Virus record (IMG/VR): IMGVR_UViG_3300045742_000043
Span: 1 to 40,080 of that record
DNA: 40,080 nt
Source: a virus
Reading direction: 5' to 3' (one strand)
How positions within the stretch are numbered: position 1 is the first letter of the stretch; each line of letters begins with the position of its first letter. Of this stretch, positions 1 to 40,080 are shown piece after piece. The notes beneath the pieces were generated by a model that saw nothing but the letters and a program-made list of their open reading frames with translations, ran no database searches and was not told the DNA's origin. The translations under genes were made by a program, and so were the position numbers.

Positions 1-127
1 ACGGTATTTGTGCAGCGTCTACATTGCTGTATAGTGATAGCCATGGTTAAGCAATAACGCTTAATCAAGTTAAACGTTAAAGGTAAATAGCATGACTAAT
101 GTAATCAAAGTAAATCCGGCCCATCCC
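1..127. repeat. Left copy of the 127-bp exact end repeat
   Basis: These 127 bases recur exactly at 39954-40080. The repeat includes the upstream region and the first codons of the gene at 92. The simplest reading is a circular assembly graph cut with a 127-base overlap, giving a 39,953-bp unit. A genuine direct terminal repeat of this length is also possible. Confidence 0.97.
8..35 (+). promoter_or_regulatory. Candidate sigma70-type promoter for the gene at 92
   Basis: TTGTGC (8-13) and TATAGT (30-35) are separated by 16 bases and lie about 60 bases before the ATG at 92. A small dyad TTAAGC-AATAAC-GCTTAA (47-64) follows and could be an operator. No other promoter-like element is obvious between the iteron region and this gene. 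Confidence 0.4.
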
Positions 128-14310: not shown

Positions 14311-15713
14311 TGCCCCGCAAATATCTAGTAGAAGGCACAGGCGATGTTGTTACCATCCCTGACGGCATGTCGCTCAACGCCGCGTTGAAGCGATACGAAG
14401 CTGAGTACATGAAAAAGCGGGGTATCAAGCCCGCTGGACAGATGGGGGCGGAGTTAGAAGGTAAGGCGAATGCGGCGGCTACCGACGCCGGTAATCGCTA
14501 TATGGACGAGAACCCCATAATGGGGAAAGTGGCGGCTTACCAAGCAGGGGCTAAGAATCTTGGGCGTAACCTGGCACAGATGGCGCTGCCAGAGTCTCTG
14601 GAGAAAAGATTTGGTGTGTCTGATGAGGACATCAAAAGTAAGCAAGCCCTGGAAGCTCCTCTTAAAGAACGTGAAACAGGTATGTACACGACGGGGGAAA
14701 TTGTTCCTTCTTTTGTGGCAGGCGCTGCGGGTAAGATTCCCCAGCTTGCAAAAGGTCTTCCGGCAGCCCTCGCCGCAATGGGGGAAGGTGCAGTCTTCGG
14801 TGGTGCGGTTGCAGGCCCAGAGAACCGTGGAAAGGGGGCGGTAGCCGGCGCTGCCTTTGGCGGTGCTGTGCACGGTGCTGGTAGAGTGCTCAGCAGGGCG
14901 CTACAGGGGCCGGCGCCGCCTAGTGCAGCAGCACAAAGGGCAATGCAGCAGGGCCGCCAAACGCCTCGAGGGGGCGTCGAGCCGTTCATTCCAACGGGCA
15001 TGTCAGCCAGCAAAACTAAGGAAGGGGGAGCAACCAAGTATGTCTATGATAAAATACTTCCAAACTTCCCATCTGCCAGTCGTAGATTGGCAGAACAGGG
15101 TGATGATTTGGTGCGCGACACTTACAGGAATATGTTACGCCAAGGCTATGGAAAACACGCTGATGAAGTAATTAAGAAGTTCGACGAGACAGATAGCCTC
15201 CTAGACGCAGCCCGACATGGGGAAGACTTAGTGGCGCAGGCTCCTGTCGTCGGGTCTAATAAAATCCGCCAGGTGTTAATTGAATCAGGTAAACAGGGAA
15301 GCCGGGGTAACCCAACGCTGAAACAAATTAGCAGCACTAGTAAGCGTCTATATAAAGACGTTGTGGACCCACCGCTTAAAAGAATGGCTGATGAAATGTC
15401 AGACCTTATGAGGGGCACCCCCCAAGAAGGAGGCTTAGGTCTCCGTAAGATGTTCTTTACTCTAGTTAACTGGAGTGGCTTGTTCACCCCTGGCGCGATA
15501 GCAAGGATCGCTAGTTCCAAGTCATTCCAAAAGTACCTTCAAGGTAATACATGGTGGCAGAAACCTCTGCAGAAAGCTATGCAAGCGGGCGATAAACGTA
15601 AGGTTCAAGATGTGCTAGAGCGCGTAATACGGAATAGCGGCATACAGAATAATCAGGAAACGGCAGAAGATGCTGCGACCTATATAGAGGAACAATTTGA
15701 TGGCCAGAGATAG
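14310..15713 (+). CDS. Ejection-type internal virion protein with glycine-zipper membrane region
   Basis: In this 467-residue protein, residues about 125-195 hold a Gly/Ala-rich hydrophobic stretch with GAVFGGAVAGP and GAVAGAAFGGAVHGAG, a glycine-zipper pattern seen in phage ejection proteins and other membrane-inserting proteins. The rest is helical and charged. It probably enters the host envelope during infection and helps form the DNA channel; this is inference from composition and from its place between the tail-hub and fibre genes. The start overlaps the preceding stop, and the tail-fibre gene begins 14 bases before its end. Confidence 0.75.
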   Translation: MPRKYLVEGTGDVVTIPDGMSLNAALKRYEAEYMKKRGIKPAGQMGAELEGKANAAATDAGNRYMDENPIMGKVAAYQAGAKNLGRNLAQMALPESLEKRFGVSDEDIKSKQALEAPLKERETGMYTTGEIVPSFVAGAAGKIPQLAKGLPAALAAMGEGAVFGGAVAGPENRGKGAVAGAAFGGAVHGAGRVLSRALQGPAPPSAAAQRAMQQGRQTPRGGVEPFIPTGMSASKTKEGGATKYVYDKILPNFPSASRRLAEQGDDLVRDTYRNMLRQGYGKHADEVIKKFDETDSLLDAARHGEDLVAQAPVVGSNKIRQVLIESGKQGSRGNPTLKQISSTSKRLYKDVVDPPLKRMADEMSDLMRGTPQEGGLGLRKMFFTLVNWSGLFTPGAIARIASSKSFQKYLQGNTWWQKPLQKAMQAGDKRKVQDVLERVIRNSGIQNNQETAEDAATYIEEQFDGQR

Positions 15714-17970
15714 TTCAGGGATTTACACCCTCCCCTCCGGCAACCCGGTGACTAGTGGAGCAACTATAAGTTCTACTGTCCACAATAACACGATGGATGA
15801 TATAGGGGACGAGCTTAGTGATAGCCTGTCCCGCTCTGGAAAAGGCGGTATGTCCGCTGCTCTGTTATTAGATGATGGAACGGTCTCCCTCCCAGGTGTG
15901 TCCTTTGGAAGTGACCCTAACACGGGTTTGTATCGTGCGGGGGCTGATGATCTTCGTATCGGCACAGGCGGTGCTATCAATGCTAAGTTTGATGGAGGAG
16001 TAACCCTGTATCATGCAGGGACAGCTAGATTCACTTCAACAACCGCAGGATTCACTGCGAACGGTACAGTGTTCGGGCATGTGTCCACAGGGTCGGGGCT
16101 TGTAGAAAACGAGACCCGCAATAGTGTCGGGGGGTTGCAGCTTAGTGTTCTGGCGACCACTGCCGATGTACAGATAGCACAGACTGACTCTTCTGGTATT
16201 GTTGAGGATGTGTGGCTGAATTTAGCTCGTAATGGGGCGGTCAGTTTATATTTCAATAATGCAAAAGCTCTGGGTACGACTGTGGAAGGCATCAGTGTTT
16301 TAGACACTAGTGGCTCTGCTCCTGTGCTCACTTTACGAACTGACGCAAATAGTATTGTAACTCGGCTCCAGTCTGATGGTACAGATTCAGTAGTGCGGAA
16401 TGCTGTCAACTCAGGAGTTATTTCCGTCCAAGGAACTAATTCCGGCGGGTCTGTAGTGGCCATGCTTAGGGGTGATCCTGATGATGCCGCTACTCTGTAT
16501 TATCAAGGTACAGATGCCCTGAACACATCAGCGACAGGTATAAGCGTTCGTTCGGCAGGCAGCGATGCTAGAGTTTTGCTTCAAGATTCTGGCGCTGCCT
16601 CCTTAGCACAGATGTTCACCAGTAGTGACGACTTGTTCATTGAAACACTCGCTACAGATAAAGACATGTATCTGCGGGTGAACGACGGAGGTGTGCAAGA
16701 CAACGCAATAGTAATGATATCTGGCGGTGCCACAACACTATATAATGACGCATCAGCCAGAGTGGCGACCACCAGTACCGGAGCGCAGGTATCAGGTACT
16801 ATATTTGATTTCGTCAACACTGCTTCCACACTTACAGAAAACCAGACTCGCAATAGTGTCGGCGGACTGCAATTGTCCGTACTCGCTACGACTGCTGACG
16901 TACAGATATCCCAGACTGACTCTTCAGGCATAGTCGAAGATGTATGGTTGAATCTGGAACGCAATGGGGCGGTTACTCTTTATCACAACAATGTCGTATC
17001 CCTCGCTACCTATACAGATAATCTAACAGGTATTGAAGTTGGTTCGTCAGGCTCAAACCAGTTACGTATACGACCTTGGGATGCAACGGATTCAGATATT
17101 GACGGGCTGCTGAGTGGGAGCACATTCGGGGGTTTGGTAGAAGGAACAGCAAGCGGGCATATGGTAATCGGTGTGCGCGGCAACGATTCTAACGATTCGT
17201 TTGCCGTAGTGGGCACCGATGACGGAGACGCTGTCTACGATACTCTGATGATACATGCGGCGGCGGGAGGGGCGGCAACCCTGTACTACGACGGAACGTC
17301 TAAACTGGCTACTACTTCATTAGGAGTCAGCATAGACAACGGTACTGGTTCTGCATTATTGCTAGTGACAGGAGCAGATGCTGAAGGTGACGATGGGGGG
17401 CAAATAAATCTGGAAGGCGCAGGAACAGACACTTACGTCGCCCTAGATAATTATAACGGCATTATTCGTCTGCTGGTAAACGACGCCTCACAAATTGGTT
17501 TGCAGTCTGAGCCTTCGGGGGCTGTTACTCTGTACTATTCGGGAACTGCGGAGTTTGTCACCCAGAACTCAGACGCTTCGTACAACACGAGCGGTGCGCA
17601 GGTTAAGGATCACTCAGGCACCTATCAAGATGTAGGATTCAATGTGATGCCGGTGGTAGAGCAGGATACCAGCACAACACTGGACGAAGCCGACGTAGGC
17701 AAGATGCTCCATAGAGATGCTACCGGCGACGCCACTTACACGCTGCCTAGTGGCACCAGCGGGGCAGTGCCGCCAGTGGGGGCACTGGTTATGCTTACCA
17801 ACGAAAACGGCACAGGAACGGTTACAGTAAGCGCAGCAGGCACACTCCGCTGGTTTAATGGGGACGGCACCCCCAGCACCGGCAATAGAACTCTTGCAGA
17901 GGGGGGTGTGTGCAGTATGTATCACTACGCTAACACCGAATGGTGGGTTTGGGGAACAGGGCTAAGCTAA
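15700..17970 (+). CDS. Tail fibre protein with internal duplicated modules
   Basis: In this 756-residue protein, residues 1-35 (YTLPSGNPVTSGATISSTVHNNTMDDI) are a typical virion-attachment end of podovirus fibres. SFGSDPNTGLYRAGADDLRIG near residue 70 is a common fibre motif. The shaft has repeated (G)AVTLYxxG/N elements at about ten places and two near-identical 52-residue blocks 244 residues apart. The last 110 residues (TLDEADVGKMLHRDATGDATYTLPSG onward) form a Ser/Thr/Gly-rich beta domain common at fibre tips. The ATG at 15700 has AGAGGA upstream and overlaps the previous gene. It probably contacts the host surface together with the beta-helix proteins encoded later. Confidence 0.88.
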   Translation: MARDSSGIYTLPSGNPVTSGATISSTVHNNTMDDIGDELSDSLSRSGKGGMSAALLLDDGTVSLPGVSFGSDPNTGLYRAGADDLRIGTGGAINAKFDGGVTLYHAGTARFTSTTAGFTANGTVFGHVSTGSGLVENETRNSVGGLQLSVLATTADVQIAQTDSSGIVEDVWLNLARNGAVSLYFNNAKALGTTVEGISVLDTSGSAPVLTLRTDANSIVTRLQSDGTDSVVRNAVNSGVISVQGTNSGGSVVAMLRGDPDDAATLYYQGTDALNTSATGISVRSAGSDARVLLQDSGAASLAQMFTSSDDLFIETLATDKDMYLRVNDGGVQDNAIVMISGGATTLYNDASARVATTSTGAQVSGTIFDFVNTASTLTENQTRNSVGGLQLSVLATTADVQISQTDSSGIVEDVWLNLERNGAVTLYHNNVVSLATYTDNLTGIEVGSSGSNQLRIRPWDATDSDIDGLLSGSTFGGLVEGTASGHMVIGVRGNDSNDSFAVVGTDDGDAVYDTLMIHAAAGGAATLYYDGTSKLATTSLGVSIDNGTGSALLLVTGADAEGDDGGQINLEGAGTDTYVALDNYNGIIRLLVNDASQIGLQSEPSGAVTLYYSGTAEFVTQNSDASYNTSGAQVKDHSGTYQDVGFNVMPVVEQDTSTTLDEADVGKMLHRDATGDATYTLPSGTSGAVPPVGALVMLTNENGTGTVTVSAAGTLRWFNGDGTPSTGNRTLAEGGVCSMYHYANTEWWVWGTGLS
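16105..16992 (+). repeat. Duplicated module within the tail fibre gene (16105-16260 and 16837-16992)
   Basis: Two 156-base blocks, offset by exactly 732 bases, encode 52-residue segments beginning ENxTRNSVGGLQLSVLATTA. Comparing codons by hand, 22 are identical, 25 differ silently and 5 change the residue. The protein is therefore conserved while the DNA has diverged, indicating an old duplication held by selection on the protein rather than a recent copy. Confidence 0.9.
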
Positions 17971-18389
17971 TGAGCGTGAGTAGCATCGTAGCAGCGGCGG
18001 GTATGGGACTGTCCCGGTCATTTTTAATAGACCCTGGTTCACAAAACTATAGCTCCATTATCCCATCAGGTAATTCCATTTGTGGAATTCGCATTGCTAC
18101 AGATAGAGATGTTGACGAGCGAGATTCTGGCGGGTACACAGACAGGGCAGATTGGCTGGACGCAGTGGGTACCCCAGCCGACTATGAAGTACGGGTGACT
18201 GTGGACTCAGGCAGCCTTGACGCTGGCAGTGATACTACAGGATCTTATATCGCGTTAAGTTCTAGTCGCGAATGGTACACGGACGATATTCAGTCTGCTG
18301 ATCTGACTATTTCAATACGTCGTGCTACGTACACCGCAGATGAAATAAGTTTCACCTGCCAACTCGTGTCTGACAACTCACCTATCTAG
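17970..18389 (+). CDS. Small virion-type protein after the tail fibre, unknown family
   Basis: This 139-residue protein starts at an ATG overlapping the fibre stop (TAATG). A short hydrophobic N-terminus (SSIVAAAGMGLS) is followed by a beta-rich, Ser/Thr/Asp-rich body such as CGIRIATDRDVDERDSGGY and YEVRVTVDSGSLDAGSDTTG. I do not recognise a family. The start overlap suggests co-translation with the fibre. It may be a fibre accessory or structural protein, but this is only contextual. Confidence 0.72.
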   Translation: MSVSSIVAAAGMGLSRSFLIDPGSQNYSSIIPSGNSICGIRIATDRDVDERDSGGYTDRADWLDAVGTPADYEVRVTVDSGSLDAGSDTTGSYIALSSSREWYTDDIQSADLTISIRRATYTADEISFTCQLVSDNSPI

Positions 18390-18398
18390 GCGAGGACA

Positions 18399-18746
18399 GT
18401 GACCCTTAATGAGAAACAAGTTGAATTCACACGATGTGTCGGACTGCTTCTTGTGTATGCTACGGATATGGGCTTATTCGTTATACTGGCAGAAGCGTTT
18501 CGTACAAAGGAGCAGGCCGAGATCTACGCCGCCAGCGGTCGGGGCATCCTCAACAGTGTTCACCGTAAGAAATTAGCGGTGGATTTATTTCGTTACAAAG
18601 ACGGGACTATAAGTTGGGACGTAGAGGATTATACCCAGCTCGGCCAGTATTGGAAAACACTCCATCCTGATGCACGGTGGGGTGGAGACTTCCTTGGTAG
18701 AAGGGACGCTGTGCACTTCAGTTTTGAGCATAATGGGTATTTGTAA
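18399..18746 (+). CDS. Endolysin: M15-type L-alanyl-D-glutamate/D-Ala peptidase
   Basis: This 115-residue protein has all key elements of small phage M15 peptidases: the zinc ligands in the SVHRKKLAVDL segment (H55, D62), the RWGGDF motif at 93-98, and the catalytic acid plus third zinc ligand in DAVH (D103, H106). These enzymes cut peptidoglycan stem peptides in the periplasm. No signal peptide is visible, so a holin must release it. The start is GTG; GAGGA lies only two bases before it, with a better-spaced TAGG just upstream. It opens the lysis cassette. Confidence 0.92.
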   Translation: MTLNEKQVEFTRCVGLLLVYATDMGLFVILAEAFRTKEQAEIYAASGRGILNSVHRKKLAVDLFRYKDGTISWDVEDYTQLGQYWKTLHPDARWGGDFLGRRDAVHFSFEHNGYL

Positions 18747-18803
18747 GTCCTGGGAGTTGTGTGCTACCGTTAAGCCCTATTTAACCGAGTTTAGAGGGAT
18801 GTG

Positions 18804-18983
18804 ATGGACAACGAAAATACAGCGAAAACAGCGGAAGCAGGTCTCGCTTTTCTTCAACGAGTTGAGTTAAAGGGTGCTGAAGTCGGCGCTTACATTGAAG
18901 TTAACCAGCTCCTCGGTCGCATCGCAAATGGAGAATCAGTGGTTGTGGTTCCAGAAAACAACATAAAGGAAATCAAACAGTAA
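18804..18983 (+). CDS. Small soluble protein in the lysis cassette, unknown function
   Basis: This 59-residue protein has AGAGGG at 18793-18798 before adjacent GTG (18801) and ATG (18804) codons; ATG was chosen. The pattern FLQRVELKGAEVGAYIEVNQLLGRIANG is helical. I have a weak impression of similar small proteins near lysis genes in other phages, but no function is known to me. It has no signal peptide or membrane segment. It ends one base before the GTG of the barrel-protein gene. Confidence 0.7.
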   Translation: MDNENTAKTAEAGLAFLQRVELKGAEVGAYIEVNQLLGRIANGESVVVVPENNIKEIKQ

Positions 18984-18984
18984 C

Positions 18985-19521
18985 GTGGACGGGTGGACTA
19001 CGAGCATCAAAAACTTTTTGAAAACGCGGTGGCAATTTGTTGTCATCGCCATATTTGCGATTCTGTTTCTGTGGGGCGTCGTCCGCGAGGCCGAAGCCGC
19101 AGAGCATAGCGCAGAAATCGGGCTTAGCTATGGCGTGATCAATAGCGAGAAGCTGATTACCCAGCGAATCGGTTATGTTTACGACGACCGCTGGCGGTTA
19201 CGATTAGAACGGCATGGCGGCGATTATTACGATACATCAAACAGTTATACACTGGCGCGGTCGGTGATGTGGCGCAAGGGCAAGACGTTCCAGCCAATGC
19301 TTGAGTTTGGCGTTACGTATTGGGATGAGTTGTTGATTGATCCGAATAGCAGGCGCGGACTTCCATTTGTGAATGACGAATGGACTTATAGCCTGGGCGT
19401 TGGCGTGAGAGCTTGGGATGTATTCGAGGCCGGACTGACACACTCAAGCACTGCGGGGCGTTCGCGCCCGAATCGCGGCATTGATAGGATCTATATTAGT
19501 TATGTTCTCGACCTTCCTTAG
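18985..19521 (+). CDS. Exported PagL-like (lipid A deacylase-like) outer-membrane beta-barrel
   Basis: In this 178-residue protein, residues 11-16 are basic (LKTRW), 17-33 hydrophobic, and AEA-A near 36-39 gives a signal-peptidase site, so the mature part is about 140 residues. That part divides into about eight alternating strands (for example AEIGLSYGVI, RWRLRLERHG, FQPMLEFGVTYWDE, EWTYSLGVGVRAWD, RIYISYVLDL), the size of the PagL barrel. THSSTAGRSRPNRGID places H153, S155 and D167 at the spacing of the PagL His-x-Ser...Glu triad (H126, S128, E140 of Pseudomonas PagL), with Asp for Glu and Thr for the usual Asn after the Ser. PagL removes a 3-O-acyl chain from lipid A. It lies between the endolysin and holin genes. 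Fold call good, enzymatic activity uncertain. Confidence 0.6.
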   Translation: MDGWTTSIKNFLKTRWQFVVIAIFAILFLWGVVREAEAAEHSAEIGLSYGVINSEKLITQRIGYVYDDRWRLRLERHGGDYYDTSNSYTLARSVMWRKGKTFQPMLEFGVTYWDELLIDPNSRRGLPFVNDEWTYSLGVGVRAWDVFEAGLTHSSTAGRSRPNRGIDRIYISYVLDLP

Positions 19522-19711
19522 TGGTTTGCTGATCATTCCTGGCCTGATTGGGCTATTCACGATCTATCATTGGTTGCGCCCGCAGCATCCACCGGCCGAT
19601 ACATCAAACCGAATCAATGCAATCCGACTATGGTGGTTTGCGCTGACGAAAGAAGAAGATTTTGTGAGTTTGTATCCGTGGTTGAAAGGCGACGAAGGGG
19701 ATAACGTATGA
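19502..19711 (+). CDS. Small single-span membrane protein in the lysis cassette
   Basis: The 69-residue product of the ATG at 19502 overlaps the barrel gene by 20 bases. One hydrophobic segment (residues about 4-25, FLSGLLIIPGLIGLFTIYHW) is followed by a soluble part rich in Trp and acid residues (IRLWWFALTKEEDFVSLYPWL). It has no lipobox. It might be a holin partner, antiholin or regulator; I recognise no family. Its stop overlaps the start of the holin-like gene (ATGA). Confidence 0.68.
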   Translation: MFSTFLSGLLIIPGLIGLFTIYHWLRPQHPPADTSNRINAIRLWWFALTKEEDFVSLYPWLKGDEGDNV

Positions 19712-20130
19712 GTTTCTGGGGCCGGCTGTTCGGTACGCCGGAAGTCGTTTCCGAAGGCATTGATGCGATTGTGAATACGGGCGATGCGCTGGTATTCACA
19801 GACGAGGAGAAGTCAGACGCAAACATGCGCTGGTGGGAACTTCGGCTTAAGGCGGCAGAGGCCACGCAAGGATCGCGGCTGGCGCGACGGTTGCTGGCGT
19901 TGATGTTCTGTTCGTGTTTTCTGTTTTGGGTCAGTGTTGCTGGGGTTCTGGTTGTTGTCGCTGCATATCAGTGTGCGCCGGTAGCCGGTGTGGCGCTCGA
20001 ATACTGCGCGGCTCAAGTGGCCTCAGACAACATTATTTTGCTCGTCACATCGACGGCGGTTGGATCGAGTGTGGTTGCGATTATCAGTTGGTATTTTTGG
20101 TCAGGGATTAAGCGAAAGGAAGAAAATTGA
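19708..20130 (+). CDS. Holin-like membrane protein (3TM-holin-type)
   Basis: This 140-residue protein has an N-terminal amphipathic region with GIDAIVNTGDALVFTDEEKSDANM, resembling the xDKLVFTxEEKA pattern of 3TM-type phage holins. Two strong transmembrane segments follow (about 62-88 and 105-130), with a basic C-terminal tail (GIKRKEEN). It would form inner-membrane holes that release the endolysin encoded at 18399. The position at the end of the lysis cassette supports the call. Translation is coupled to the preceding gene. Confidence 0.82.
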   Translation: MSFWGRLFGTPEVVSEGIDAIVNTGDALVFTDEEKSDANMRWWELRLKAAEATQGSRLARRLLALMFCSCFLFWVSVAGVLVVVAAYQCAPVAGVALEYCAAQVASDNIILLVTSTAVGSSVVAIISWYFWSGIKRKEEN

Positions 20131-20149
20131 AAACAACACGGACGCAATA

Positions 20150-22015
20150 ATGCAGCTAACGTTCACTGAGCTACCCACGTATCCCCCACTGGACCGGGCG
20201 GGGCACCCTGCCCATGGAACCGGGTGGGCAGTGTACGTTGACGGGGTCCCAGTCCACACCATCCCCCTGGGCTCCGCGTTACCGTACACGGTCCCGGGTG
20301 ATTATGATTACGGTATTCGAGTGACTGTTGCGCCGAAGAACGAACTTGGTGTCGGAAATACCCTGCAAGAAAAAACATTGGAAAAACCGTATGATTTACC
20401 TGGGGACGCTATTGGAGATTTTGAAGTGAGCTTACTTTATCTTGGTCCTAGTTCTGGTACAGTGCCTACGTCTACAGGCCAGGCTTGGTCTTATCCAGGT
20501 ATACCGTACCCGACAATCGAGAATAGCGCGTTAACGGCTCTAGGTCATGTTAAGTGGCCTTATGATCCTTGTACGATTCCTATACCGGACGATCCCGAAA
20601 ACTGGGTTTCAGACACAGCAGGGTTTTATTACATAGATCAGGCGACGGGGACAGATACAGGGCGAACTTACGGGAACCCAAATGCGCCTCGACTCACAAT
20701 TCCGAGTTCGATAGACACCAGCGCAAAAATAGTGATTTCTGGCGCGTACGACACGCAACATGACGGGAACAGGACTATAACTGGAACCTCTAGTGCGCCT
20801 GCGTTTGTTGTTGGGCGGAATGGTGGTGTGCTGACAAATAAATTTGTTCCGAATGTCGCCTCGACGCATGTAGTTTTTGAGATCAACGGGAACTGGACCG
20901 CGAGTTCGTTCAACGGGAAGCTGTGGCCCGCAGGATCGTATATCACGATTAGAAATGCCAGCCTCATCGCGGACGGATCAACGCAGGGTATCGGCGGGAT
21001 TATTACTGGCAGTGGTGGGCATTACATGATCTACAACTGCACGATTTCGGGCGCTGGTCTGCCGCTGACTGATGATGTTGAGTCAGACACGCACGGTATT
21101 AAGGTGTCCCCGACTACTAAAGATGTTTGGATCATCGACTGCGATATCAATGAAAATCACGGTAACGCTATTCAATGCGGGTCTAATGCTGGTGATCTGC
21201 AAGAGCGGATATGGATTGCGGGTTGTACTGCCGACAACAACTTCCAGACTGCATTCTGGACAAAAGCAGGGCGACACATTGTTATGTCGAACTGCATAGC
21301 AACAGATCACACGTTAGGGGGTGCGTCCGGTCACGGAGGATTCGGAACGCAGTACGGCTGCGACAATCTCTGGGTCATCTTCTGTAAGGCGTCAGGGGGC
21401 TATGAAGGGTTCCAGGGCAGATCGTCGTCCGGTGGCGTAGGGGATGTGTACGTTATCGGCAATTTATTTTATGACAATTTTCTATCTGGGAATCCCGGCT
21501 CAGTGAGCGGCAATAACTCAAATGCGGCGCAGTCCTACGGATCGCAGCCGGTTCATCTGCTGCATAATACACTTTGGAATAACTCAGGGGGGCATTACAA
21601 AATCCCCTCGATAAATTCGACTGTGGTGGGAAATATCGTCAGCAAAGAATTGGAATCTAATCACAGACTGATGCAAGCGTACGACCCTTCGTACTGGCAG
21701 GGAGCGGAGAACATATACGAAACGGGCGGGACATATGCCACTGCTGATTCGTCAACGCCTCAAACGTATGCAACATTTGTCGCGGCGGTCGCATCAGAGA
21801 CAGACACAATTGAAGCGACAGAAGCGGCCATAGATTTCGTTTCCGCAAGCAATTTTCACACTAATTCCGGGTCCGTGGCGCGAAGTCATTCGGCATCACA
21901 CTCGATATACGACACGTTCGAGACTCTGTATGGATTAAGTATCAAAGTCGATTTGGACGGGAATCCCCGGCCATCATCAGGCCCGTGGGACGCGGGCTGT
22001 TATCAGGATACATAG
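20150..22015 (+). CDS. Right-handed beta-helix receptor-binding/tailspike-type protein
   Basis: The 621-residue protein starts at the ATG at 20150; the same frame is open further upstream only through the holin gene, where it is not real. Residues 1-150 form a distinct beta-rich head-attachment-like part. From about 190 onward there are repeated short Asn/Gly-rich turns of the pectate-lyase type (YITIRNASLIADGS, YMIYNCTISGAG, DVWIIDCDINENHGNAIQ, IWIAGCTADNN, NLWVIFCKASGG, VYVIGNLFYDNF). It ends in LDGNPRPSSGPWDAGCYQ, a sequence type common at the end of such proteins. It could bind or degrade a surface polysaccharide. Catalytic residues cannot be assigned by eye. No strong ribosome-binding site is visible. 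Confidence 0.82.
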   Translation: MQLTFTELPTYPPLDRAGHPAHGTGWAVYVDGVPVHTIPLGSALPYTVPGDYDYGIRVTVAPKNELGVGNTLQEKTLEKPYDLPGDAIGDFEVSLLYLGPSSGTVPTSTGQAWSYPGIPYPTIENSALTALGHVKWPYDPCTIPIPDDPENWVSDTAGFYYIDQATGTDTGRTYGNPNAPRLTIPSSIDTSAKIVISGAYDTQHDGNRTITGTSSAPAFVVGRNGGVLTNKFVPNVASTHVVFEINGNWTASSFNGKLWPAGSYITIRNASLIADGSTQGIGGIITGSGGHYMIYNCTISGAGLPLTDDVESDTHGIKVSPTTKDVWIIDCDINENHGNAIQCGSNAGDLQERIWIAGCTADNNFQTAFWTKAGRHIVMSNCIATDHTLGGASGHGGFGTQYGCDNLWVIFCKASGGYEGFQGRSSSGGVGDVYVIGNLFYDNFLSGNPGSVSGNNSNAAQSYGSQPVHLLHNTLWNNSGGHYKIPSINSTVVGNIVSKELESNHRLMQAYDPSYWQGAENIYETGGTYATADSSTPQTYATFVAAVASETDTIEATEAAIDFVSASNFHTNSGSVARSHSASHSIYDTFETLYGLSIKVDLDGNPRPSSGPWDAGCYQDT

Positions 22016-33300: not shown

Positions 33301-34566
33301 TTAGTCTGTTTCCTTTATGTCTGCCCAATTTTCACCAACAAATCCCTCGCTGCGCATAGGCACATCAAAGAGGTCTTGGTCCATCGCAAGTCTTAGCCGA
33401 TCCATACTTTCCTCCCAGATATCTGCTGGTGCTGAGATGTTAATCTCATCATGGACAGTTGCTAAGAACACATCATCGGCACCGCGCATATCTTCCCAAT
33501 CACAGATACACTGCTTGGTCTGATCGGCGGCACTGCCCTGAATAAGATAATTGAGCAGCTTGTACTCAAACGACATTATCCTATCATACTTATCCACATA
33601 CTTGGCAGGTTCAGTATAGTACCTGCGACCTCCCCATGTGGTGATGGGCATGCCTTGTCTGCCCATCTGCTTAGTATCAGTCTGCAACCACTTAATCCCT
33701 GGAAAAGCTCTAAGGTAGGCGTTGATTAATTGAATAGCTTCCTCATAGGTACAGCCTACCTGGCTAGACACTGCGCGGGGGCCTCCCCCGTAGATAATTT
33801 GGAAGGCAGTGATCTTAACCTGGGGACGCTGGAACTCCAGCCCCGCAACAGCTTTGATCATTTCCTGCGCCATACTGTGCGGGTCTAGGCTGGGGTTCTT
33901 TTGATACGCCTCTAAAAGAATACCATCTTCAAAATGCGCAGCTACTCGTATCTCCTGCCCACTAAAGTCCCGCTTTAACCAGACGTGTCCTTCTTCGGGG
34001 AGGAAGGCCCGCCGAAGCGTGGGTGGCTCAGGACAGTCGCTAGGGACTTCGATTTTGTACTGGTTTGGGGGATTCTGGAGATTGGGATGGTCACACGATA
34101 ACCGCCCGGTCCTTGCACCCTTACCCCCTCCAAAGTCATCCCGGCTCCTAACTTGATTCCAGTTGGGGTGGACTCTGCCGTCAGTGTGGGAGAGTTCGAG
34201 CCACTTAACGATAAAGTCACTGAGACATTTTCTAATTGCACCGTAATATATGACGTCATCTCTTAATCCTTTGTCTGCTATGGTTGATTCTAATACTTCC
34301 CGCTTGACACTACGGCGACCTTTAGGTGTGAACACCTGGTGAGTCACTGCGCCTGCATTATCAAGCGCCTTGCCTAGTTGAGCAGGGCTAGATAAATTGA
34401 GGTCTGGTGACTCTAAGGTGGCGCGTACCCGCGCTTCTACCATTGCCAGAGCTTCCGAGTATGTCTGCTGGTGATTTAACAGTAGATCTCTATCTACCCG
34501 GACACCCCGGCGAGTCGCGGCTACTAGTATGGGGCTGAGTTTACGTTCTCTATCATATGGCGTCAT
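33301..34566 (-). CDS. DNA polymerase family A, polymerase domain only
   Basis: In this protein of about 421 residues, motif A is KRDFSGQEIRVAAH, motif B is the KITAFQIIYGGG helix and motif C is TVHDEI. N-terminal SPAQLGKALDN and RTGRLSCDHPNLQNPP are typical of the thumb and palm of Pol I-like enzymes. The 3'-5' exonuclease domain is a separate gene just upstream (34553-35101). The chosen ATG at 34566 has a GGGGGAA site and overlaps the exonuclease gene by 14 bases in the +1 frame. Motif A reads DFSGQEIR rather than DYSQIELR. Confidence 0.93.
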   Translation of the reverse strand: MTPYDRERKLSPILVAATRRGVRVDRDLLLNHQQTYSEALAMVEARVRATLESPDLNLSSPAQLGKALDNAGAVTHQVFTPKGRRSVKREVLESTIADKGLRDDVIYYGAIRKCLSDFIVKWLELSHTDGRVHPNWNQVRSRDDFGGGKGARTGRLSCDHPNLQNPPNQYKIEVPSDCPEPPTLRRAFLPEEGHVWLKRDFSGQEIRVAAHFEDGILLEAYQKNPSLDPHSMAQEMIKAVAGLEFQRPQVKITAFQIIYGGGPRAVSSQVGCTYEEAIQLINAYLRAFPGIKWLQTDTKQMGRQGMPITTWGGRRYYTEPAKYVDKYDRIMSFEYKLLNYLIQGSAADQTKQCICDWEDMRGADDVFLATVHDEINISAPADIWEESMDRLRLAMDQDLFDVPMRSEGFVGENWADIKETD

Positions 34567-35101
34567 AGAGTTCCCCCATACAGAAGTCGAATAGTTTCTT
34601 AGTCCGTACCACGTCACCGATTGCGTATGGCTTGACTAACTCAAACGGGGCTTCACAGATATAAGCCCCCGCTGTTTTCTTAGTCGCTTGTGGTACGTTG
34701 GCAATTATCCAATCATGCAATTCGTCCTGCTCCTCTGGTTCCAGCCCGAGTATCTCCTCGCTGGCAGGCTTGAGGGCAAGGTTCCCGTAGGGATTGTATT
34801 GGAATACCAAGTATTGAGTATCATGGACTTGATCCCACGCGGGCCATGGTAGTTTCAGCCAGTGGGCAGCAACGCTGAGGTCAAAGGGCGCGTTGTGATA
34901 TAGATGTTCGTATTTGTCCCAGTTATCTCTGAGTACCTCGTAGCCTGGTCCTCTAGGCTTGTCGGTTTTGGTGAATGAAATAGGCAGGTAGTCGGGTTCC
35001 TCATCGGGCAGCCACACCGCGACCCCAATAGGTCGCGGAGGGCTGATTAATGGGTTGCCAACTATCGCTTCGGTCTCGAAGTCGTAGGTGGCAATCACCA
35101 T
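34553..35101 (-). CDS. 3'-5' exonuclease (DnaQ-like) domain of the split family A DNA polymerase
   Basis: In this 182-residue protein, Exo I is YDFETEA (residues 6-12), Exo II is HNAPFDLSVA near 69, and Exo III is YAIGDVVRT near 158, the set needed for proofreading. In most family A phage polymerases this domain is fused to the polymerase encoded next. The end (RTKKLFDFCMGELYDAI) is where the fused protein would continue into MTPYDRERKLSPIL of the polymerase gene. The start overlaps the preceding stop (TAATG). Confidence 0.88.
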   Translation of the reverse strand: MVIATYDFETEAIVGNPLISPPRPIGVAVWLPDEEPDYLPISFTKTDKPRGPGYEVLRDNWDKYEHLYHNAPFDLSVAAHWLKLPWPAWDQVHDTQYLVFQYNPYGNLALKPASEEILGLEPEEQDELHDWIIANVPQATKKTAGAYICEAPFELVKPYAIGDVVRTKKLFDFCMGELYDAI

Positions 35102-39953: not shown

Positions 39954-40080
39954 ACGGTATTTGTGCAGCGTCTACATTGCTGTATAGTGATAGCCATGGT
40001 TAAGCAATAACGCTTAATCAAGTTAAACGTTAAAGGTAAATAGCATGACTAATGTAATCAAAGTAAATCCGGCCCATCCC
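39954..40080. repeat. Right copy of the 127-bp exact end repeat
   Basis: This is identical to 1-127, including the start of the small gene at 92, which is therefore present a second time as an N-terminal fragment (ATG at 40045). It should not be counted as a separate gene. Confidence 0.97.

Follow-up and report, generated by a model that had tools for sequence, protein, structure and literature searches.

A PagL-like outer-membrane barrel encoded in a phage lysis operon, a possible accessory lysis enzyme

Introduction

How does a phage in which no spanin candidate can be found open the outer membrane of its host? In a survey of spanin genes, no spanin could be identified in 91 of 677 phages (about 13% of the Gram-negative phages examined), and the general suggestion was made that “an OMP could act as an o-spanin” (Kongari et al. 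2018, PMC6139136). What spanin-less phages use instead is still treated as an open question in a 2026 paper (PMC12819732). The same question is raised by a locus in the IMG/VR virus record IMGVR_UViG_3300045742_000043, here called the window (the whole stretch of DNA that was analysed, 40,080 nucleotides). A gene with a GTG start on its plus strand (18985..19521) encodes a protein of 178 amino acids. The original prediction, made from the DNA letters, described this protein as a barrel resembling the lipid A 3-O-deacylase PagL, and proposed that it either disrupts the outer membrane at lysis in place of spanins or remodels lipid A to block superinfection.

The two ends of the record are exactly identical over 127 bp (a direct terminal repeat without strand, copies at 1..127 and 39954..40080), which points to an assembled circle or to a genome with terminal repeats. 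The window is thus probably a complete genome of about 39.95 kb. Our literature search, which covered few subscription-journal papers, turned up no report that connects PagL with phage lysis. Phage PagL-type barrels that recur in lysis cassettes would offer a directly testable answer for spanin-less phages; their known fold, known triad and obvious dead mutants fit existing lambda holin–endolysin testbeds.

Results

Sequence relationship to PagL

The window protein matches the Pfam PagL family (PF09411) over residues 68-173 with E=0.0032 and 18.1 bits, a score under the 23-bit cut-off, and has no other Pfam match. Against a profile of 47 phage homologues from which the window protein was left out, it scores 74.9 bits (E=3e-22), and a profile that also lacks its two closest kin still gives 49 bits (E=3e-14). 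Alignment to the PagL of Pseudomonas aeruginosa (2ERV) places His153 and Ser155 (19441..19449, plus strand) on H126 and S128, and Asp167 (19483..19485, plus strand) on E140, without a gap. The His-x-Ser ... Asp arrangement that had drawn attention to this gene is therefore found at the exact spacing of the PagL triad. The surrounding hairpin is likewise gap-free, with 9 of 21 residues identical, and the chance expectation of the triad motif in six frames is 1.9e-6. Among 32 bacterial PagLs examined, the acid position is held by E (11), N (11), D (8) or Q (1); with D in 8 of 32, Asp167 is an ordinary variant.

The two proteins also share a PN-x-G loop and a similar size. They differ in that the window protein has Thr156 in place of Asn129 and Asp for E140, scores below the Pfam cut-off, carries a long signal that resembles a TM segment and has charged residues ahead of its A-x-A, and is phage-encoded beside lysis genes.

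Predicted structure of the window protein

AF2 run on a 48-row homologue alignment gave a model with a pLDDT of 92.7 and a pTM of 0.84, while the single sequence yielded an unusable model (pLDDT 42). About eight strands had been expected from the sequence, and any fold other than an eight-stranded barrel had been named in advance as evidence against a PagL relationship; the alignment-based model has exactly eight strands, following an N-terminal helix (residues 2-34). Its top VIA-align match is PagL (2erv_B), with Z 17.0 and 1.7 A over 124 residues. The barrel of OprF is nearly tied (Z 16.4), and Foldseek by itself ranks OprF first. Fold by itself consequently does not settle the assignment. 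Barrels of the OprF/OmpA type share the eight strands but have no catalytic triad and no sequence-profile match, and the PagL assignment draws on fold, triad and profile together. In the model, His153 and Ser155 close strand 7 and Asp167 opens strand 8, which is the place of the PagL hairpin. This position and the superposition on PagL imply that the triad would cluster at the outer-membrane interface. We consider the window protein almost certainly a PagL-family barrel with an intact triad.

Family membership leaves some room for a different substrate. The replacement of PagL Asn129 by Thr156 and the divergence of the family mean that substrate preference may differ, and the protein might be a phospholipase or another acyl hydrolase on a PagL scaffold, with lysophospholipid as its membrane-active product. 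OMPLA (PldA) offers a parallel from bacteriocin release, as it too is an outer-membrane barrel acyl hydrolase and a possible lysis helper. It is, in contrast, a host protein, a larger, 12-stranded dimeric phospholipase linked to colicin and bacteriocin release. Since PagL is both the sole Pfam match and the best structural match of the window protein, such a change of chemistry seems improbable to us.

Architecture of the signal region

The predicted signal peptide is borne out by an N-terminal hydrophobic segment that contains the model helix and ends in A-x-A (residues 1-38; 18985..19098, plus strand); a lipobox is absent. Most lysis-type phage PagLs are built alike: a strong hydrophobic core is followed by charged residues, and these by A-x-A. 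The mean Kyte-Doolittle hydropathy of the core is 2.93 in these phage copies versus 2.02 in bacterial PagLs, and charged residues precede the A-x-A in 18 of 22 lysis-type phage copies versus 9 of 28 bacterial ones.

Position of the gene in the lysis operon

As predicted, the gene lies between an endolysin gene and a holin-like gene, in a tightly spaced and partly overlapping series on the plus strand. The first gene (18399..18746) encodes an M15-type endolysin of 115 amino acids, identified by phrog_465 (endolysin, E=3e-13) and matched under the cut-off by PF13539 (E=5e-4). PHROG 5115, labelled “ferredoxin”, also matches the M15 endolysins of the window and of record L276; this label is probably wrong. 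A small gene follows (18804..18983; 60 amino acids when read from an alternative GTG at 18801), and its stop lies 1 nt upstream of the PagL-like start. The gene for a 68-residue protein with a single TM segment (19505..19711) begins with an ATG inside the 3′ end of the PagL-like gene, and the next gene, whose ATG overlaps the preceding stop, encodes a TM protein of 140 amino acids (19708..20130) that matches phrog_9646 (E=5e-16). That family is annotated as unknown function, and this protein is accordingly called only “holin-like”, by its topology and place. A promoter/terminator scan found no promoter-like site on the plus strand in 17800-20400, which is weak evidence for a single transcription unit.

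Phage relatives and selection

Single-sequence searches with the window protein returned no relatives in IMG/VR or in 50,697 deposited phages, and tblastn with P. aeruginosa PagL and eight phage members as queries gave no match in the same deposited phages. Relatives were sought in IMG/VR with degenerate DNA patterns built on the PagL motif, excluding Pseudomonas chromosomal pagL. Many IMG/VR records (within L087-L166) are of this excluded kind, with a Pseudomonas-type chromosomal pagL beside prophage ends in prophage-derived contigs, and they form a trap for automated claims of “auxiliary metabolic genes”. The pattern scan yielded 71 stretches with about 50 distinct phage PagL-like ORFs, and the Pfam PagL cut-off was exceeded in 46 of 49 phage records. 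Because this set was picked by its motif, the invariant H, S, G, P, N and G and the D/N at the acid position carry no evidential weight. A PHROGs scan of six phage members found no significant family, apart from one member from a 350-kb phage contig, and an S-T-A-G pattern searched in 84,980 bacterial and archaeal genomes gave 7 matches, none of them PagL.

The closest relatives of the window protein come from two phage contigs, L255 (44% identical) and L251 (38%); identity to most of the other phage relatives in the alignment is 13-26%. When placed on one tree with 30 bacterial PagLs, the phage proteins group into few, phage-only clades (3 label changes versus a shuffled mean of 24), and the window protein, L255 and L251 form one clade with 100/100 support. 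In four measurable close phage pairs dN/dS is 0.06-0.15, and in a fifth 0.42, so at the level of sequence the phage genes are under purifying selection in close pairs.

These data bear on whether the gene matters to the phage at all. Its distribution among relatives defined by the portal protein is sporadic, with PagL in 0 of the 39 portal-related records that had no prior PagL hit, as might be expected of a decayed host pagL, or of a “moron” that is selfish or neutral and contributes nothing to the phage cycle. We nonetheless consider this quite unlikely, the least probable of the readings weighed here, given the purifying selection in relatives, the retained triad, the phage-only clades and the repeated placement in lysis regions.

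Genomic neighbourhoods of phage pagL genes

The association with lysis genes recurs in other phages. Record L271 is syntenic with the window phage (major capsid 72% identical, most other shared virion genes 31-47%, endolysin 28%) and has the order tail fibre, TM gene, M15 endolysin, PagL, TM genes and Rz with overlapping Rz1. L269, also syntenic, shares replication genes with the window phage (DNA polymerase 51%, primase-helicase 43%) and holds M15, Rz/Rz1 and PagL inside 3 kb. PagL adjoins an endolysin and Rz/Rz1 in L276 and L281, a holin (phrog_1356) and Rz/Rz1 in L266, a GTA_holin_3TM gene in L257 (phrog_3427, E=1e-34; PF11351, E=5e-21), a PF07486 cell wall hydrolase in L250 and a GH19 gene in L236. 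In L265 it is followed by a member of phrog_9646, the family of the window’s holin-like protein. L251 has a GH108 gene at 2.3 kb from PagL together with a counterpart of the window’s 68-residue gene, and in L178 the gene right after PagL, overlapping its end, encodes a protein 53% identical to the window’s 68-residue protein (E=7e-25).

An M15 or GH24 gene lies within 4 kb of PagL in 8 of the 10 records with such a match, versus 2.75 expected (Fisher p=0.003). This test is based on few records, with some short contigs among them, and p becomes 0.05 when only the five records of 34 kb or more are counted. The recurrence of this neighbourhood fits the part of the original prediction that placed the protein’s action at lysis.

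Other copies lie elsewhere. Recognisable lysis genes are absent near PagL in L106, L165, L169, L207, L238 and L243, and some phage copies adjoin terminase, tail or nucleotide-metabolism genes; in L216, which shares terminase (57%) and portal with the window phage, PagL stands immediately ahead of terL. Copies apart from recognisable lysis genes would suit a barrel that alters or masks LPS late in infection, sparing virions adsorption to debris or blocking superinfection, and the fold and triad are equally compatible with this. Yet phages usually bind the sugars of LPS, and PagL takes off a buried acyl chain. Moreover, most genes that change receptors are early genes or belong to prophages, and the window gene overlaps lysis genes. 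Late envelope remodelling is consequently an unlikely account of the window gene, and its superinfection-blocking form, the second proposal of the original prediction, is less likely than an accessory role in lysis.

Co-occurrence with spanins

The reported lack of a clear spanin pair with a lipoprotein holds in a record that is probably complete. A relaxed lipobox scan of all frames, and across the junction of the record ends, found no o-spanin or u-spanin lipoprotein above the shuffled level, and the matches in the window were all antisense or otherwise implausible. The filter had been relaxed, and the window rescanned, to take in lipoboxes of the types MQGC and SSGC, which reading of the frames had revealed in the o-spanins of L271 and L266, respectively; being a simple pattern, it may let a spanin with an unusual lipobox escape.

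An overlapping Rz/Rz1 pair and PagL occur together in five phages (L271, L269, L266, L276 and L281). This rules out PagL as a general replacement for spanins, and the proposal that it acts in their place stands only as a possibility for the window phage itself. Nor did PagL and spanins anticorrelate among portal relatives: 9 of the 10 inspected relatives without PagL also have no recognisable spanin pair, as judged by a detector that was tuned on the five positive phages and may miss other pairs. Missing spanins alone thus do not point to PagL.

The barrel could also stand in for a spanin by topology rather than chemistry, pairing from the outer membrane with an inner-membrane protein such as the 68-residue neighbour. 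The window record offers no lipoprotein candidate, a TM partner is kept beside PagL in L178, and an outer-membrane protein in the role of o-spanin is what PMC6139136 explicitly suggested. In the 68-residue protein, however, the positive charges follow the TM segment, which suggests a C-in topology, unlike that of an i-spanin. The co-occurring Rz/Rz1 pairs argue against such a role as well, and it would leave the conserved triad unexplained, though the phage set was chosen by that motif. A purely structural partnership therefore strikes us as very doubtful, slightly more so than the phospholipase alternative.

Discussion

A proposed accessory role for the PagL-like barrel in lysis

The reading that we prefer, with a probability of roughly one half, is that the window protein is an accessory lysis enzyme, deacylating an outer-membrane lipid and so weakening the outer membrane at lysis. 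A phage-adapted PagL barrel would be made late, together with the endolysin and the holin-like protein, exported by Sec and then folded in the outer membrane. There, His153, Ser155 and Asp167 would cleave an acyl chain off lipid A (or off an outer-leaflet phospholipid). Deacylation would give lipid A a cylinder to inverted-cone shape, and the outer membrane may then curve, vesiculate and weaken, rupturing more readily once holin and endolysin have acted. From the sequence data we infer each of these properties of the window protein, that is, its export, processing, catalysis, substrate, timing and effect on lysis.

Expression of PagL in Salmonella increases outer-membrane vesiculation, and deacylated lipid A collects in the vesicles (PMC4958258); in the authors’ proposal, it makes the membrane unstable and curved. 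The vesiculation arose without an envelope stress response (PMC4958258). Deacylation by itself would hence probably not lyse the cell, and a helper is likelier than a sole lytic agent. The Rz/Rz1 genes in five PagL phages indicate that PagL is often not alone in disrupting the outer membrane, in agreement with a helper role; in those phages PagL would assist the spanins. In the window phage, with no spanin candidate found, PagL could be the main disruptor of the outer membrane, and we think it unlikely that it is the only one.

Compared with known systems, the window gene shares with Rz/Rz1 its direction to the outer membrane and its place in a lysis cassette, whereas its product is a barrel and a predicted enzyme, with neither lipoprotein nor coiled coil. 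Disruptins (phiKT) have likewise been proposed as non-spanin outer-membrane disruptors of tailed phages, but they are short amphipathic peptides and the window protein is a probable enzyme with a barrel fold. That phage-evolved PagL-type hydrolases form a third class of outer-membrane disruptor beside spanins and disruptins, with the window protein as sole breaker in its phage, is a speculative extension that we rate as rather unlikely.

Additional observations in the window and related records

The window’s DNA polymerase is encoded in two overlapping ORFs on the minus strand (33301-34617 and 34553-35101), either because the gene is split or because of a frameshift near 34553-34617; a single DNA polymerase ORF in L269 (11987-13861) matches both parts, at 51% and 48%. 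A tail-fibre-like protein of 757 amino acids (15697-17970) contains an internal duplication, with NSVGGLQLSVLATTADVQIxQTDSSGIVEDVWLNLxRNGAV present twice.

Among the related records, L219, L223-L226, L228 and L240 encode short PagL-motif proteins without a clear signal peptide, several of which start MLGMCLAPLILMG; the one in L226 adjoins ligase-like and DNA-polymerase-like genes. In a 52-kb contig, a PagL-like gene (L143:4464-4910) comes right after a gene whose 221-residue product is another putative outer-membrane barrel.
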